NCBI GenBank assembly: GCA_021777755.1 | Contig: JAJYDE010000006.1 | Location: 62,001-126,000, forward strand | DNA from: Deltaproteobacteria bacterium | GTDB taxonomy: Bacteria > Desulfobacterota > Syntrophobacteria > Syntrophobacterales > Syntrophobacteraceae | DNA: 64,000 nucleotides | Direction of reading: 5' to 3' | Shown: one piece after another, positions 33,948 through 47,805 of the stretch | Layout of the letters: every line of letters starts with the position of its first letter | How positions within the stretch are numbered: position 1 is the first letter of the stretch | Notes under the pieces: generated by a model | The model's input: the letters and a program-made list of their open reading frames with translations, nothing else | What the model was told of the DNA's origin: nothing | The model's database searches: none | Program-made: the position numbers and the translations under genes

Positions 33948-35024
33948 TTACATGTTATTGCGGAGTCGGCGCCCGGCCCGCGGGCCGGACGAATTGTTAA
34001 AGATATAGACCAGCACGTTAGTTTTTCCGTCGGTTTTGATGTCGGTTTGCACCCCGATGGTAGCCTGTTTTGCCGTTCCCCGGCCTATGCTGCCAAGCTT
34101 TGGAACAATCTTGAGAAGATAGCCGTTTTGATTTTCCAGCTTTTCGCCTGTTACGGACATGAGTTCTTTGTCATAGGAGAGCGCGGTGATCTTGAAGGGT
34201 TTATCATCGCCGCTCACAAGGGTTACGGCGCCCGAGCGCACGGGGTTATCGGCGTCGAGTTTGCCTATCAGGACGGTTTCGGGCGAGGCCGATATGGCGC
34301 CTTTTATGGCCGCCATGACACGAACGAGCAGCCAGGGGGCCCGGGGCAGGTCGGTCTCAAGTCTTATGAAGCCGCTGTAGCCGCCTTGGCGAACCTTGTT
34401 GGAGACCTTCAGGCGGTAATGGGTCCCGTCGGTAACCGTACGGATGGAGTAGTCAATTTTACCGGTCAGGTTGGTATCGATACTTTTGATGTGAAAGGGG
34501 GTCTTGGTGGCCTGAAGGTCCACCACCGAGCGGGAGAGCCGCCCGGTCGAGCCGGTAAAGGAGATGTTCGGGGAAGGCTTGATTGTGATGATGGCCTTTA
34601 CCACCCCGCGGAGCTTCAAAACCTGCCGGGGGTTGTCGGGGTCGTCGCTTTCGATGGTTACGGTCTTCATGATGTTGCCCTGGAAATTTTCCAGGTTTAC
34701 TTTCATTATTACCTTTCCCTCGCCACCGGGAGGGATTGCCGGATCGAACCGGACAACGGTGCAGCCTCAGGCCACTCTGATGTTTTCGATCCTGAGCATG
34801 GCGTTGCCGGTGTTCAAAACGGTGAATGCATGCTCGACTTTGTCGCCCTGCGGGGCGGAGCCGAAATCATAATCGGGGTTTGGCACCAGTATGGACGGGT
34901 GCGCGGGGGGCTGCCCGAAAGGGGTGGTTGTTTGATCGGCCGCGCGAATTTGAGGCGAGAAAGCAAAAGAGGAGCAGAAAAAGGCCAGGAAAAGAGCCGC
35001 TTTAAACAAGGCACGGGCTTTCAT
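33948..35024 (-). CDS. DUF1573 domain secreted protein, candidate selenoprotein (UGA read as Sec86)
   Basis: 358 residues if an in-frame TGA at 34767-34769 is decoded. A signal peptide (MKARALFKAALFLAFFCSSF) leads to the DUF1573 domain: PDYDFGSAPQGDKVEHAF, FTVLNTGNAMLRI, then A-U-GCTVVRFDPAIPPGGEG and VTIESDDPDNP. The family has a conserved C-G-C-T here, and the TGA replaces exactly its first Cys. Before and after it the frame is open, on-family and free of other stops. A stem-loop with bacterial SECIS geometry starts 5 nt after the TGA. The start is supported by GGGAGGT 8 nt before the ATG. The alternative is a nonsense mutation splitting the gene. Downstream of and co-directional with yibQ and ctpA. 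Two further beta-sandwich repeats follow the DUF1573 part. Confidence 0.75.
34724..34761 (-). promoter_or_regulatory. Candidate bacterial SECIS stem-loop
   Basis: On the mRNA strand, 5 nt after UGA: lower stem CACCG/CGGTG, upper stem TTG-T-CCGG/CCGG-CAA with a bulged U, and a loop TTCGAT; an asymmetric 7-nt loop lies on the 3' side. UGA to apical loop is 18 nt. The bulged U in the upper helix and this spacing mirror the E. coli fdhF element recognised by SelB. Confidence 0.55.
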
Positions 35025-36456: not shown

Positions 36457-37785
36457 TTACCTGTAGACCGACCGGGCCATTATTTCGTAGCCCTTGAGCA
36501 GGTCCAGCGCGCGGCTGACCTGATTGTCCCCGTTCACGAACTTTTTGGCCGCGATCTGATCGGGGGTAAGCTTGAGCTTTTTTGCCACCTTCGGGTTCTG
36601 GTCCTTGAAGTGGCCCGGCAGATCTTTTTCCCGAATGAACGTGGGTTGGGCGCCTTTCTTGGCGGTGTTTGCGCCGGGTGCGGTTCTTGGGACCACGATA
36701 TCGGGCGTGATCCCCTCGGCCTGAATGGAACGGCCCGAAGGCGTGTAGTAAAGCGAGGTGGTAAGCCGCAAGGCCGAACCGTCGTTTAGCGGAATCACGG
36801 TTTGTACGGAGCCTTTGCCGAAGGTCTGCTCGCCCATTATGATCGCTCTTTTGTGATCCTGGAGGGCTCCGGCCACGATTTCCGAGGCGCTGGCCGAGCC
36901 TCCGTTTACCAGCACGACCATGGGAACCGTAAGGGGATGGTCTTTTTTGTGGGCCTCAAAGCGCATCTTCTGATCCTCGAGTCGTCCGCCGGTATAGACG
37001 ATCAGACCACCGTTCAAAAACTGATCGCTCACCTCCACGGCCTGGTCGAGAAGACCGCCGGGGTTGTTTCTAAGATCGAGTATCAGCCCCTGGAGGGTGC
37101 CGGAATTGTCGGCCTGGAGTTTTTTGATCGCCTTGCTCAGGTCGTTTGCCGTGCCGGATTCAAAACTCGAAATCCTTACGTATCCGAAGCCGGGTGCGAG
37201 TTGCATGGACTTTACGGACTTTATGGCAATGATGGCGCGGGCAAGTTCGATGTCCATCGGTTTTGCAAGGCCCTTGCGGAAGATCATCAGCTTGACCTTG
37301 CTGCCCTTGGGGCCCCTCATCTTCTGGACCGCGTCCATGAGTGACATGCCCTGGGTCGGTTGGTCATCGATTTTGAGAATCTGATCATTGGCCTTTATGC
37401 CCGCCTTGTCGGCCGGAGTGCCCTCGAGGGGGGAGACAACCGTCAAAACATTGTTTTTAACCGTTATCTCGATACCCAGTCCCCCGAATTGCCCCCTCGT
37501 TTCGATCTGGAGTTCCTTGTAATCGGTGGGGGTAAGAAAGGAGGAGTGGGGGTCCAGTTCGCGGAGCATTCCGGTTATGGCCCCGTAGATGAGCTTTTTC
37601 TGATCGGTTTTCTTGACGTAGTTATCCTGGACGATCGACATGACGTCGCTAAAGAGCTTGAGGTAGTGATAGGTATCCTGCTTTTCGGAAGGATCGGCCG
37701 GCTTGGCGAGCGCCAGACGGCACCCGAAGGAAAAGATCAAGACGGCGACTGTTATGAGTGAAAAAGTTTTCAGATTCTTCAACAT
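36457..37785 (-). CDS. ctpA: C-terminal processing peptidase, S41 family
   Basis: 442 residues. A signal peptide (MLKNLKTFSLITVAVLIFSF) is followed by the N-terminal helical part, a PDZ domain (GLGIEITVKNNVLTVVSPLEGTPADKAG) and the S41 protease core: LILDLRNNPGGLLDQAVEVS, then VNGGSASASEIVAGALQDH (catalytic Ser) and GEQTFGKGSVQTV (catalytic Lys). It cleaves periplasmic proteins at non-polar C-termini and is linked to cell-wall hydrolase control. The start at 37785 gives the signal peptide; AAGGAAA lies 8 nt before. Same strand as yibQ 122 nt downstream. Confidence 0.93.
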   Translation of the reverse strand: MLKNLKTFSLITVAVLIFSFGCRLALAKPADPSEKQDTYHYLKLFSDVMSIVQDNYVKKTDQKKLIYGAITGMLRELDPHSSFLTPTDYKELQIETRGQFGGLGIEITVKNNVLTVVSPLEGTPADKAGIKANDQILKIDDQPTQGMSLMDAVQKMRGPKGSKVKLMIFRKGLAKPMDIELARAIIAIKSVKSMQLAPGFGYVRISSFESGTANDLSKAIKKLQADNSGTLQGLILDLRNNPGGLLDQAVEVSDQFLNGGLIVYTGGRLEDQKMRFEAHKKDHPLTVPMVVLVNGGSASASEIVAGALQDHKRAIIMGEQTFGKGSVQTVIPLNDGSALRLTTSLYYTPSGRSIQAEGITPDIVVPRTAPGANTAKKGAQPTFIREKDLPGHFKDQNPKVAKKLKLTPDQIAAKKFVNGDNQVSRALDLLKGYEIMARSVYR

Positions 37786-38062
37786 GTGGATTTCCTTGCT
37801 GTAGCCAAATATGAAGAAGGTCTCCGGTTTCGATACGCTCGGGAGCCAGCGAAATCCGGCGTTCAGGGAAGAATTTTCAAACCCGTCGAATGTAACAGCA
37901 CGATGTTCAAAGGGCAACCCCATTTTTGGCACGGCGAAATGGAAAATGAAGCTGCGAGTCTGTAGACTTTCTTTTGCGGCCATTTATCTTACCAATAATA
38001 TCGGTTGGCAGGAATTTGGAGGATCGGCGGAAAATTCCGCTAAAGAAACAGGAGGTAAAGAG

Positions 38063-40185: not shown

Positions 40186-40689
40186 CTATTTTTTAACCTG
40201 TTCGATCAGACCCATGACATTGGCGGGCAGTTCATAGCCCTGGTATTTGACGGCGCCGGTTTTGTCGAGCAAAATGACATAGGGAATTCCCATAACCCCG
40301 TAAGCTTCCGAGACTTTCGAGCCGTCGTCGTAGAGCACGGTATAGGGCAGTTTTTCGTCTTTTACGTAGCGCTTCACTTTTTCGAACGAGTCGCGGCTTC
40401 CCACGTCGATTGCCAGGATGGCGAGCCGGGATTGGGGGATGGAGTTGCGCAGTTTGGCCAGTTCGGGCGCCATTTCCTGGCAGTGCGGGCACCAGGTGGC
40501 AAAAAATTCGATCAGAACCGGCTGGTTTCCCTTGAACTGGTGCAAGGAGACCGTGTTTCCGGCAGTGCTTTTGAGTATAAAATCGGGAAGTGCCTCCGCG
40601 GCCCCGGCGGGCAGATAGGACACCAGGTTGGCCAGCAGCAAGGCTGAGAGGAACAACAGGGCGATTCTTTTACCGGTATTTAGCTTCAT
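40186..40689 (-). CDS. TlpA/ResA-like thiol-disulfide oxidoreductase
   Basis: 167 residues: signal peptide or anchor (MKLNTGKRIALLFLSALLLA) and a periplasmic thioredoxin fold with active site FFATWCPHCQEM (C67, C70) and cis-Pro GIPYVILLDKTG. It probably reduces disulfides, for instance during cytochrome c maturation. Its ATG overlaps the ccdA stop (ATGA), so CcdA is the expected electron donor from cytoplasmic thioredoxin. The start at 40689 is supported by that coupling and by AGGAG upstream. The periplasmic c-heme protein at 9246 and thiol proteins like the candidate selenoprotein are possible clients. Confidence 0.92.
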   Translation of the reverse strand: MKLNTGKRIALLFLSALLLANLVSYLPAGAAEALPDFILKSTAGNTVSLHQFKGNQPVLIEFFATWCPHCQEMAPELAKLRNSIPQSRLAILAIDVGSRDSFEKVKRYVKDEKLPYTVLYDDGSKVSEAYGVMGIPYVILLDKTGAVKYQGYELPANVMGLIEQVKK

Positions 40690-41393
40690 ATCCAGAATTC
40701 TCCTGCTTTTATAAGGAAGTACTCGGCTGCGACAATCATAAGGATTCCAAAAATCTTTTGCACGCGAACCATCCATTTGCCCGAGCGGGGAAGGGAGGCA
40801 AGCAGGCCCGTGAAGGTGCCCACAACGATCACAAGGGCTCCCAGACCGAGGGAAAAGGAAAACAGCATGCCGATTCCGAGGGCGATCTGGCGCTTTACTG
40901 CCACGATGGTCAGAAGACCGGCAAGAATGGGGGTTGTGCAGGTGCTTACGACAAGCGCCGAGGCCCCGCCCAGGATCATGCTGGTAAAGACATCGTGGCC
41001 CGAAAAGCCGGTGACCTTCAAGTTGTTGAGAAAGCCGGGCGGGGCAAGGGGAATGGCGTCAAGCATCACAAGGCCGAAAAAAAGCAGCACGTTGGCCACC
41101 GCCAGGTAAACCCAGGGGCTGGCGGTTAGAGCGCCGAACATTTGGCCGGTCAGGGCCGCAAAGGCTGCCAGGGTGGAATAGACGATGGCAAGCCCCAGCA
41201 CATAAAACAGGGACAGAACAAATCCCCTGCTCCTGCTGCCGTTGGCCTTGCCACCGATAAAGGCAACAGTAATCGGCATCATGGGATAGGTGCAGGGTGT
41301 AAAACTTGCGAGAACGCCTCCGGCAAAAGAGGCAAGAAGAGCAAGCCAGGGCGAATTATGCGCGATTTGAGCAATATGGTTAAATGTCACCAT
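40686..41393 (-). CDS. ccdA: CcdA/DsbD-type transmembrane electron carrier
   Basis: 235 residues with about six membrane helices. The two redox cysteines lie in SFTPCTYPMMP (C34) and VSTCTTPILAG (C152), the hallmarks of the DsbD beta domain. It passes reducing equivalents from thioredoxin across the inner membrane. Followed immediately by tlpA with a 4-nt overlap. recO lies 29 nt upstream on the same strand, an unrelated gene that may share transcription. Confidence 0.92.
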   Translation of the reverse strand: MVTFNHIAQIAHNSPWLALLASFAGGVLASFTPCTYPMMPITVAFIGGKANGSRSRGFVLSLFYVLGLAIVYSTLAAFAALTGQMFGALTASPWVYLAVANVLLFFGLVMLDAIPLAPPGFLNNLKVTGFSGHDVFTSMILGGASALVVSTCTTPILAGLLTIVAVKRQIALGIGMLFSFSLGLGALVIVVGTFTGLLASLPRSGKWMVRVQKIFGILMIVAAEYFLIKAGEFWI

Positions 41394-45801: not shown

Positions 45802-46407
45802 TTAAGCTTTGCTTACCAGCGGGCTGCCAACGGGCAGGACGTCCCTGCCGAACACCTGCAGAAAGATCACGTGTGCCATCATGTACCAGGCGCACAGGGC
45901 GCACACCAGAAGATCCCACGCGGTGGCGTGCAGAACTGATTTCATTCCGCCCAGAAACACCAGGTCAAGGCCGATAAAGCCGATCAAAAGTGTCAGGAAG
46001 GTAAGAAACATCATGAAATGGATTCCAAAGGAGCCGATGAACAGAATGAAGGTAAGGAGGGTGAATGTCAGCATGAACCAACCGACATCCTGAGCGTTGA
46101 TCAGAAGGAATTCGTGGATGAAAGTCTGGCCTCCCTTTACAGTTTCGTACTCTAAAATGTAGAAGATGATTCCAAGCGCGATCCAGAACGCGCCGTAGGC
46201 TGTAAAGGCGCAGAAACCGAAATTGTTTCCCGTGCCGTATTCCAGGTAGCCGGCTATGAGCTGCGCGGTCCCGCCGAAGGCAAGCGCCAGGCAAAAAACA
46301 ACTCCCGGGTGGCACCAACCCAAATTATGAAACTGGAGCAAAAGGGTGGTGGCGCCGAAACCTGCAAGCCCTACTACCGCCGGATTTCCCGGTGTTTGTG
46401 CCGCCAT
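45802..46407 (-). CDS. SatP/GPR1-FUN34-YaaH family acetate/succinate transporter, copy 1
   Basis: 201 residues, six membrane helices. The family motif NPAVVGLAGFG opens helix 1, followed by FGGTAQLIAGYLEYGTGNNF and a Phe/Trp-rich pore. It conducts acetate or succinate with protons through a hexamer. It is nearly identical to the copy at 47167-47805 except in the segment after GWFMLTFT and at the ends. A long leader and its own promoter lie upstream. Acetate traffic fits an anaerobe that produces or consumes it, with ackA in the window. Confidence 0.92.
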   Translation of the reverse strand: MAAQTPGNPAVVGLAGFGATTLLLQFHNLGWCHPGVVFCLALAFGGTAQLIAGYLEYGTGNNFGFCAFTAYGAFWIALGIIFYILEYETVKGGQTFIHEFLLINAQDVGWFMLTFTLLTFILFIGSFGIHFMMFLTFLTLLIGFIGLDLVFLGGMKSVLHATAWDLLVCALCAWYMMAHVIFLQVFGRDVLPVGSPLVSKA

Positions 46408-47166: not shown

Positions 47167-47805
47167 CTATCTTGCGCCCGCGCGCGCGGGTTCGGCGGCC
47201 ATTTCCTTGGGAATAAGCGGACTGCCGACGGGCAGGACATTCCTGCCGAAAACCTGCAGGAATATCACATGCGCCATCATATACCAGGCGCACAGGGCGC
47301 ACACCAGAAGATCCCACGCGGTGGCGTGCAGAACAGATTTCATTCCACCCAGAAACACCAGGTCAAGGCCGATAAAGCCGAGCAAAAGCGTCAGGAAGGT
47401 AAGAAACATCATAAAATGTATTGCCAGTGAACCGATGAATAAAATAGCGGTGAAAAAAGTAAATGTGAGCATGAACCAACCGACATCGGTCGCGTTGATC
47501 AGAAGGAATTCGTGAATGAAGGTCTGGCCTCCCTTCACCGTTTCGTATTCCAAGATGTAGAAAATAACGGCCAGTGCGATCCAGAACGCGCCGTAGGCCG
47601 TAAAGGCGCAGAAGCCGAAATTATTTCCCGTGCCGTATTCGAGATAGCCGGCTATTAGTTGCGCGGTCCCGCCGAAGGCGAGAGCCAGGCAAAAAACAAC
47701 GCCCGGGTGACACCAACCCAGGTTGTGAAACTGGAGTAAAAGCGTGGTGGCGCCAAAGCCTGCAAGCCCTACAACCGCCGGATTTCCCGGTGTCTGTCCC
47801 GCCAT
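47167..47805 (-). CDS. SatP/GPR1-FUN34-YaaH family acetate/succinate transporter, copy 2
   Basis: 212 residues, the paralog of copy 1, with the same NPAVVGLAGFG motif and six helices. It differs mainly by TFTFFTAILFIGSLAIHF in the central part and a longer tail (IPKEMAAEPARAGAR). The near-identity of the rest, beside divergent intergenic DNA, suggests tandem duplication followed by gene conversion. It has its own leader and promoter, so the two copies can be expressed separately. Confidence 0.92.
   Translation of the reverse strand: MAGQTPGNPAVVGLAGFGATTLLLQFHNLGWCHPGVVFCLALAFGGTAQLIAGYLEYGTGNNFGFCAFTAYGAFWIALAVIFYILEYETVKGGQTFIHEFLLINATDVGWFMLTFTFFTAILFIGSLAIHFMMFLTFLTLLLGFIGLDLVFLGGMKSVLHATAWDLLVCALCAWYMMAHVIFLQVFGRNVLPVGSPLIPKEMAAEPARAGAR

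Follow-up and report, generated by a model that had tools for sequence, protein, structure and literature searches.

A predicted DUF1573 selenoprotein of Syntrophobacteraceae with a SECIS-like hairpin outside the published consensus and a relocating partner cysteine in its short paralogues

Proteins containing the DUF1573 domain (pfam07610/PF07610) and a UGC motif are listed as predicted selenoproteins in PMC9312934 and PMC13188914, the former crediting Zhang and Gladyshev 2007 for the DUF1573 selenoprotein. Under the name OS_HP2, pfam07610 was listed with a UxC motif in a 2008 paper (PMC2398784), and NCBIfam provides the model NF041425 (OS_HP2 family (seleno)protein). The consensus for bacterial SECIS (bSECIS) elements comprises a loop of 3-9 nt, a stem of 4-16 bp, a spacing of 16-37 nt and an energy of -7.5 or lower (PMC13188914); in addition, the legend of Fig. 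2 in that paper demands a G within the first two loop positions. The same paper states that a subset of putative bSECIS elements violates the model. For the chemistry of closely spaced cysteines on an Ig-like scaffold, the CxC protein CsgC has a redox potential of -139 mV, compared with -229 mV for nDsbD and -167 mV for the tripeptide CGC (PMC3173608).

Here we analysed a window of 64,000 nucleotides (the whole stretch of DNA under study) from a member of Syntrophobacteraceae, which encodes a DUF1573 protein interrupted by one in-frame TGA. An earlier note on this DNA had taken it for a candidate new selenoprotein; this was not borne out, as DUF1573 UGC proteins (OS_HP2) are already listed and have their own NCBIfam model. 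The Sec-DUF1573 kind is thus known, and the novelty lies in the details of its RNA signal and in its paralogues: an exception to the loop rule, a second hairpin and a relocated cysteine, none of which was found described for DUF1573 in the part of the literature that was searched.

The gene is located on the minus strand at 33948..35024 and encodes 358 residues. It starts with an ATG at 35024, preceded by a GGGAGG that ends 9 nt upstream, and stops with a TAA at 33948-33950. The sole in-frame TGA is codon 86 (34767..34769, minus strand), located at the first Cys position of C-G-C-T and thus yielding U-G-C-T when read as selenocysteine. The single TGA splitting a continuous DUF1573 frame at this very position, as described in the earlier note, was confirmed in frame, position and motif. 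The PF07610 match spans the TGA, covering residues 49-142 (34599..34880, minus strand) with 72.8 bits and an E value of 2.5e-20 against a gathering cut-off of 26.1 bits. At the N-terminus there is a hydrophobic, signal-peptide-like segment (34941..35024, minus strand; sequence MKARALFKAALFLAFFCSSFAFS.., boundary set by eye), and the roughly 215 residues C-terminal to the domain have no Pfam match. The Sec-DUF1573 gene stands alone in its genome, with no second DUF1573 match at E <= 0.01. Five genes of the same genus share 50-62% identity with it across nearly the full length, with the TGA aligned.

Relatives were found in all 26 genomes of the window's family, in 34 of 39 genomes of the order and in 102 of 297 genomes of the phylum sample (E <= 1e-12). 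Sec-DUF1573 is therefore not confined to the worm symbiont of its first listing, given a relative in every genome of this family. The same family also harbors short, single-domain Sec-DUF1573 paralogues. Against NF041425, whose cut-off is 100 bits, the window protein scored 97.9 bits with 98 of 98 positions aligned. The six long Sec relatives tested all pass at 110-120. Of nine other forms tested, two pass, the long Cys forms L034 and L045; the five short Sec paralogues among those tested (L089, L096, L161, L175 and L191) score 51.6-90.9. Because these scores lie below the cut-off, the short Sec paralogues may well be mis-annotated.

Alignment of DUF1573 homologs across the TGA, a check already proposed for this gene, gave readings at 150 loci (53 + 63 + 34, after L040, which does not reach the site, was dropped from the first 54). 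The site codon is TGA in 105, TGC/TGT in 42, and ACA, TCA and TGG in one each, counts that represent related sequences and not independent events. On a tree of 116 loci, the Sec/non-Sec state changes at least 15 times, of which at least four changes are forced by well-supported branches. A sequencing error or a decaying pseudogene might be suspected in a single draft genome of 103 contigs; however, the same TGA recurs in many other genomes, across the family, the order and the phylum sample, and the reading frame is intact and under selection. An error at 34767-34769 or a pseudogene was accordingly rejected, and we assign it a practically negligible probability. In all five same-genus comparisons, covering 263-267 codons after the TGA, third-position changes outnumber second-position changes, so that the frame 3' of the TGA is, by this comparative measure, under purifying selection.

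L183 carries TGG (Trp), L043 ACA (Thr) and L044 TCA (Ser) at the Sec/Cys position; L044, which moreover has Trp in place of the Cys at +2, looks as though its active site had been abandoned. Thirteen Cys homologs (L118, L120-L126, L129-L131, L143 and L149) form a clade in which C-A-C replaces C-G-C. L040 (G022) and L019 (JAKAJS010000021.1), probably one assembly, represent a same-genus relative whose match begins past the UGA site.

The genome of the window encodes selA (605 bits), selB (357.9 bits) and selD (372.6 bits), each above its curated cut-off, as well as a tRNA-Sec whose best match to RF01852 reaches 74 bits, also above the curated cut-off. A search for selA, selB, selC and selD had been suggested beforehand, and selA, selB, selD and the tRNA-Sec were all found. 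Since RF01852 is unspecific at its own cut-off, with four places passing in this genome (the three others at 47.8-48.4 bits) and 5 of 14 control genomes passing, we rely on the 74-bit match for the presence of tRNA-Sec. The selD gene (G000:C50:63628-64548) itself contains one in-frame TGA and is therefore probably a selenoprotein gene as well. A reassignment of TGA was considered and rejected, because TGA serves as an ordinary stop, terminating 22 of the 37 window genes counted.

The presence of selA is a low-power test of the Sec/Cys distribution, as 269 of the 297 phylum genomes carry it; we thus turned to the selA-negative genomes with a DUF1573 match, of which the phylum sample holds 11. 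Absence of selA was judged as no match at E <= 1e-60, and five further sites read in this check lie outside the 150. All four selA-negative genomes with TGA at the site (G075, G114, G204 and G302) have a tRNA-Sec at E <= 1e-9. Six others carry Cys there; of these, G106 has a tRNA-Sec, and G072, G128, G181, G253 and G294 lack one. In the eleventh genome, G079, a tRNA-Sec is present and the DUF1573 match stops short of the site. Two combinations stand out by themselves: G075, G114, G204 and G302 combine TGA and tRNA-Sec yet have no selA match, and G106 (L195) has a tRNA-Sec and a Cys codon, with no selA match at E <= 1e-60.

Immediately downstream of the UGA, a SECIS-like hairpin covers nt 10-32 after the codon (34735..34757, minus strand), as indicated by its fold and by covariation in relatives. 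It has a stem of 8 bp with one bulge, U14, and a 6-nt apical loop UUCGAU at nt 19-24 (34743-34748), giving a spacing of 18 nt and an energy of -9.3 kcal/mol. The earlier note had described such a hairpin; its bulged U and its apical loop 18 nt from the UGA stand, but the main helix starts at nt 10 and not 5 nt after the UGA. The bacterial SECIS geometry claimed there likewise holds for stem, loop size, spacing and energy, but not for the loop sequence, which has no G in its first two positions. The window hairpin fails this G rule even among folds within 3 kcal/mol of the minimum, and for this reason we class it as SECIS-like, outside the published consensus class.

We then compared 70 Sec with 27 non-Sec sequences, the set left from 116 sites after removal of 16 out of register and three duplicates. 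All four bSECIS constraints together are satisfied by 3 of the 70 Sec sequences at minimum energy and by 7 of 70 within 2 kcal/mol. With the G rule omitted, 54 of 70 Sec and 3 of 27 non-Sec sequences fold at minimum energy into a hairpin of consensus type, as do 17-31 of 70 across 20 synonymous shuffles. Given the failure of the loop rule, consensus-based SECIS predictors are likely to overlook Sec-DUF1573 genes.

In the Sec forms, nt 12 (34755) covaries with nt 30 (34737); both are third codon positions, in codons +4 and +10, respectively. Each of the four types of Watson-Crick pair is represented (G-C 18, C-G 14, U-A 12 and A-U 2), adding up to 46 of the 70 Sec sequences against 19.7 expected, and in a screen of 868 variable column pairs no other has a larger excess. 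Among Sec sequences with four-fold degeneracy in both codons, 42 of 51 pair against 15.0 expected, a level reached in none of 5000 shuffles; among the corresponding non-Sec forms, 5 of 16 pair, where 6.2 would be expected. Counting G-U as well, pairing in the same-family set is 0.964 versus 0.461 after synonymous-codon shuffling (0/1000 reach it), compared with 0.370 versus 0.403 in the non-Sec set. Covariation of two synonymous positions through every Watson-Crick pair is, at the level of sequence, clean evidence for a SECIS. Other indicators of structure are weaker. The fold energy of the window hairpin is no better than that of shuffled sequence (z = -0.14) and was rejected as support, as was RNAalifold on the full set of 70 Sec sequences, which yields three pairs only. 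Run on the bulged-U, same-family, same-order and short-paralogue subsets, RNAalifold draws the two hairpins partially or completely; it draws no structure in 27 phylum-wide Sec or in the 27 non-Sec sequences. Two of five structure measures, pairs changed on both sides and further pair types, are no higher than in the shuffles. We think that these weak z, RNAalifold and shuffle results are partly explained by a helix register that differs between the bulged-U type, to which the window's genus belongs, and the rest. On this comparative evidence, the RNA structure just 3' of the UGA is under selection.

Abutting the first hairpin on its 3' side is a second one, CCCUC...GAGGG, at nt 33-50 after the UGA (34717..34734, minus strand), with an energy of -10.4 kcal/mol (nt 32-51). 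The codons beneath it are strongly biased in the Sec forms, with CCT at +12 in 46 of 65 (background 0.21) and GAG at +16 in 56 of 59 (0.44); so are ATC at +11 (56/63, background 0.55) and GGA at +17 (46/70, 0.27). In the non-Sec forms, CCT, GAG, ATC and GGA are found in 6/21, 5/7, 15/19 and 9/25, against their own backgrounds of 0.13, 0.56, 0.62 and 0.19, a weaker bias towards CCT and GGA persisting. In the second helix, 88.3% of cells are paired among Sec sequences, compared with 60.0% among non-Sec ones, and 15 of 1000 synonymous shuffles of the Sec set reach the observed pairing. Because it is conserved with little covariation, it may instead reflect a constraint at the level of sequence.

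If the TGA simply ended translation, function would have to reside, without Sec, in the 85 residues that precede it or in the product of rare readthrough. The ordinary single-sequence fold energy of the hairpin and the failed loop G rule would be in keeping with this, but purifying selection persists for 263-267 codons past the TGA, the covariation of nt 12 and nt 30 is specific to Sec forms, the genome holds a complete Sec machinery, and TGA exchanges with Cys among the homologs. A plain stop was rejected on account of the covariation and of the selection after the TGA; we regard it as highly improbable. Decoding of the UGA at codon 86 as selenocysteine, proposed in the earlier note, is instead strongly supported by the machinery, the TGA/Cys exchange, the Sec-specific synonymous covariation and the purifying selection after the TGA, all of them read from genomes. 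The apparent stop-codon defect of this DUF1573 gene would thereby be explained as recoding.

Leaving the leader aside, the window protein contains Sec or Cys at just two positions, Sec86 and Cys88. Among 30 aligned long forms, U86, G87, C88 and His65 are invariant, and a P-P-G turn is nearly so. A single-sequence structure model of residues 31-146, made without relatives, has a pLDDT of 64.8; the full-length model (pLDDT 38.9) is unusable. Foldseek returned MSP/ASH/PapD-like Ig domains (HYDIN, CEP192 and VAP-A) among the matches listed for the domain model, and by this model the DUF1573 domain may have an Ig-like fold.

The short paralogues bear on the role of the two residues. In 105 Sec forms, a partner Cys is located at +2 only in 71, at +28 only in 27, at both positions in four (L088, L094, L095 and L168) and at neither in three, with the +28 position scored allowing a one-residue gap in a few rows. 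The +28-only forms are short Sec paralogues (L089-L093, L096, L097, L161-L165, L167, L169-L175, L177-L182 and L185). Accordingly, 27 of the 30 Sec forms that lack the +2 Cys have the +28 Cys (Fisher p 1.2e-17), a value uncorrected for kinship that overstates independence because the +28 forms are largely one radiation. A tree of 56 rows has two changes of state for the +28 Cys and five for the +2 Cys, and on it the both-Cys rows branch near the +28-only rows, with uneven support. Counted from the P-P-G turn, +28 would lie opposite the Sec in the predicted beta-hairpin. A partner Cys is missing from both positions in the two short Cys forms L166 and L176. The Sec paralogues L191, L192 and L193, whose motif is UGS or USM and which likewise lack Cys at both +2 and +28, do not fit a simple two-residue redox pair.

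We take this move of the partner Cys, apparent from the aligned sequences, as the best evidence for a putative Sec/Cys redox pair. Alternatively, Sec may be inserted and Sec86-Gly-Cys88 together with His65 serve as ligands of a metal or metalloid (Cu, Hg, As or similar) and not as an exchange catalyst. Such a site would be in line with the invariance of His65 in the 30-sequence alignment and with the His at -21, which, among forms having enough N-terminal sequence, is present in 66 of 69 long and 32 of 36 short Sec forms and in 27 of 34 long and 5 of 8 short Cys forms; moreover, a binding capacity is predicted for about 20% of selenoprotein families, with metals taking part in some 70% of these interactions (PMC13188914). 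However, no metal-binding family was matched in Pfam or NCBIfam, and the move from +2 to +28 keeps the pair while altering its spacing, which a selenenylsulfide accommodates better than a fixed ligand geometry does. We thus consider a metal site unlikely, and prefer thiol exchange by the Sec/Cys pair. The moving partner Cys offers a direct experimental handle on the role of the uncharacterised DUF1573 family.

The upstream neighbor of the gene encodes a divergent polysaccharide deacetylase (PF04748; 35153..36334, minus strand, 261.8 bits), followed further upstream by a CtpA-type S41 peptidase with PDZ (36457..37983, minus strand, 204.1 bits). Across relatives, the deacetylase lies just upstream on the same strand in 19 of 21 loci (19 genomes), and ctpA is also upstream on the same strand in 18 of 21. 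The deacetylase is missing at L065 and L075; each of these is a second copy, and the deacetylase accompanies the other copy in that genome. Genes for an M23 peptidase (in 6 loci) and for FtsX (in 7 loci) are found further upstream in some relatives. Two representatives of the downstream ORFs common to 10 loci gave no Pfam match, and these ORFs may not be genes. The deacetylase, CtpA, M23 peptidase and FtsX neighbors point to a putative role in cell-envelope maintenance. The CcdA/TlpA pair reported in the earlier note is real, consisting of a CcdA/DsbD transmembrane protein (PF02683; 40686..41393, minus strand, 143.4 bits) and a TlpA-like thioredoxin-fold protein with ATWCPHC (40186..40776, minus strand), which matches thioredoxin-like families. 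The pair is not adjacent to the DUF1573 gene, lying 5.2 kb upstream with four listed ORFs between. Elsewhere in the window, the ORFs at 45802-46407 and 47167-47805 (minus strand) have near-identical N-termini (MA-QTPGNPAVVGLAGFGATTLLLQFHNLGWC..), apparently the result of a local gene duplication.

These findings enable us to propose a putative model. SelB and tRNA-Sec would decode the UGA of codon 86 at the SECIS hairpin located 10-32 nt downstream. The product would be an envelope protein whose N-terminal domain is Ig-like (MSP/ASH/PapD-like) and holds Sec86-Gly-Cys88 where a beta-hairpin begins, with about 215 residues following the domain. Most likely, Sec86 pairs with Cys88 as selenenylsulfide/selenol-thiol, and this pair would exchange with thiols or disulfides of envelope proteins, possibly those of the cell-wall maintenance machinery encoded next door. 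The window protein is thus most likely an exported, Ig-like envelope protein for selenol/disulfide exchange, in which the redox step is the presumed part. Taken as a whole, an exported DUF1573 selenoprotein with UGA86 decoded via a SECIS and Sec86/Cys88 acting as a thiol-exchange pair in the envelope is, in our judgment, probable. Opinion is evenly balanced on the wider proposal of a distinct bSECIS class, with a loop lacking the leading G and a second hairpin on its 3' side, together with Sec redox chemistry on an Ig scaffold, in which the resolving Cys would have shifted from +2 to a cross-strand +28 via both-Cys intermediates within the short-paralogue radiation.

In comparison with known systems, the best solved-structure match of the domain model is 2qsv, an uncharacterised Porphyromonas gingivalis protein (Foldseek E 1.8e-05), which is also the best match of the DUF1573 family profile (E 0.36), over an aligned stretch without the CGC motif. 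Neither CsgC nor nDsbD shows a sequence relation to the window protein in the Pfam or solved-structure search, and both are absent among the matches listed by Foldseek, which are MSP/ASH/PapD-like and other domains. CsgC is exported and combines an Ig-like fold with a Cys-x-Cys redox pair; DUF1573 resembles it in presumed working only, its redox activity being putative here. With the published bSECIS consensus, the window element shares its position right after the UGA, stem, loop, spacing and energy, and differs from it in the missing leading G of the loop and in the adjoining second hairpin. With OS_HP2, the window protein shares the DUF1573 domain and the Sec at the first Cys of UGC; scoring below the cut-off of NF041425, it is not counted as a member of that model, and it extends some 215 residues beyond the domain.
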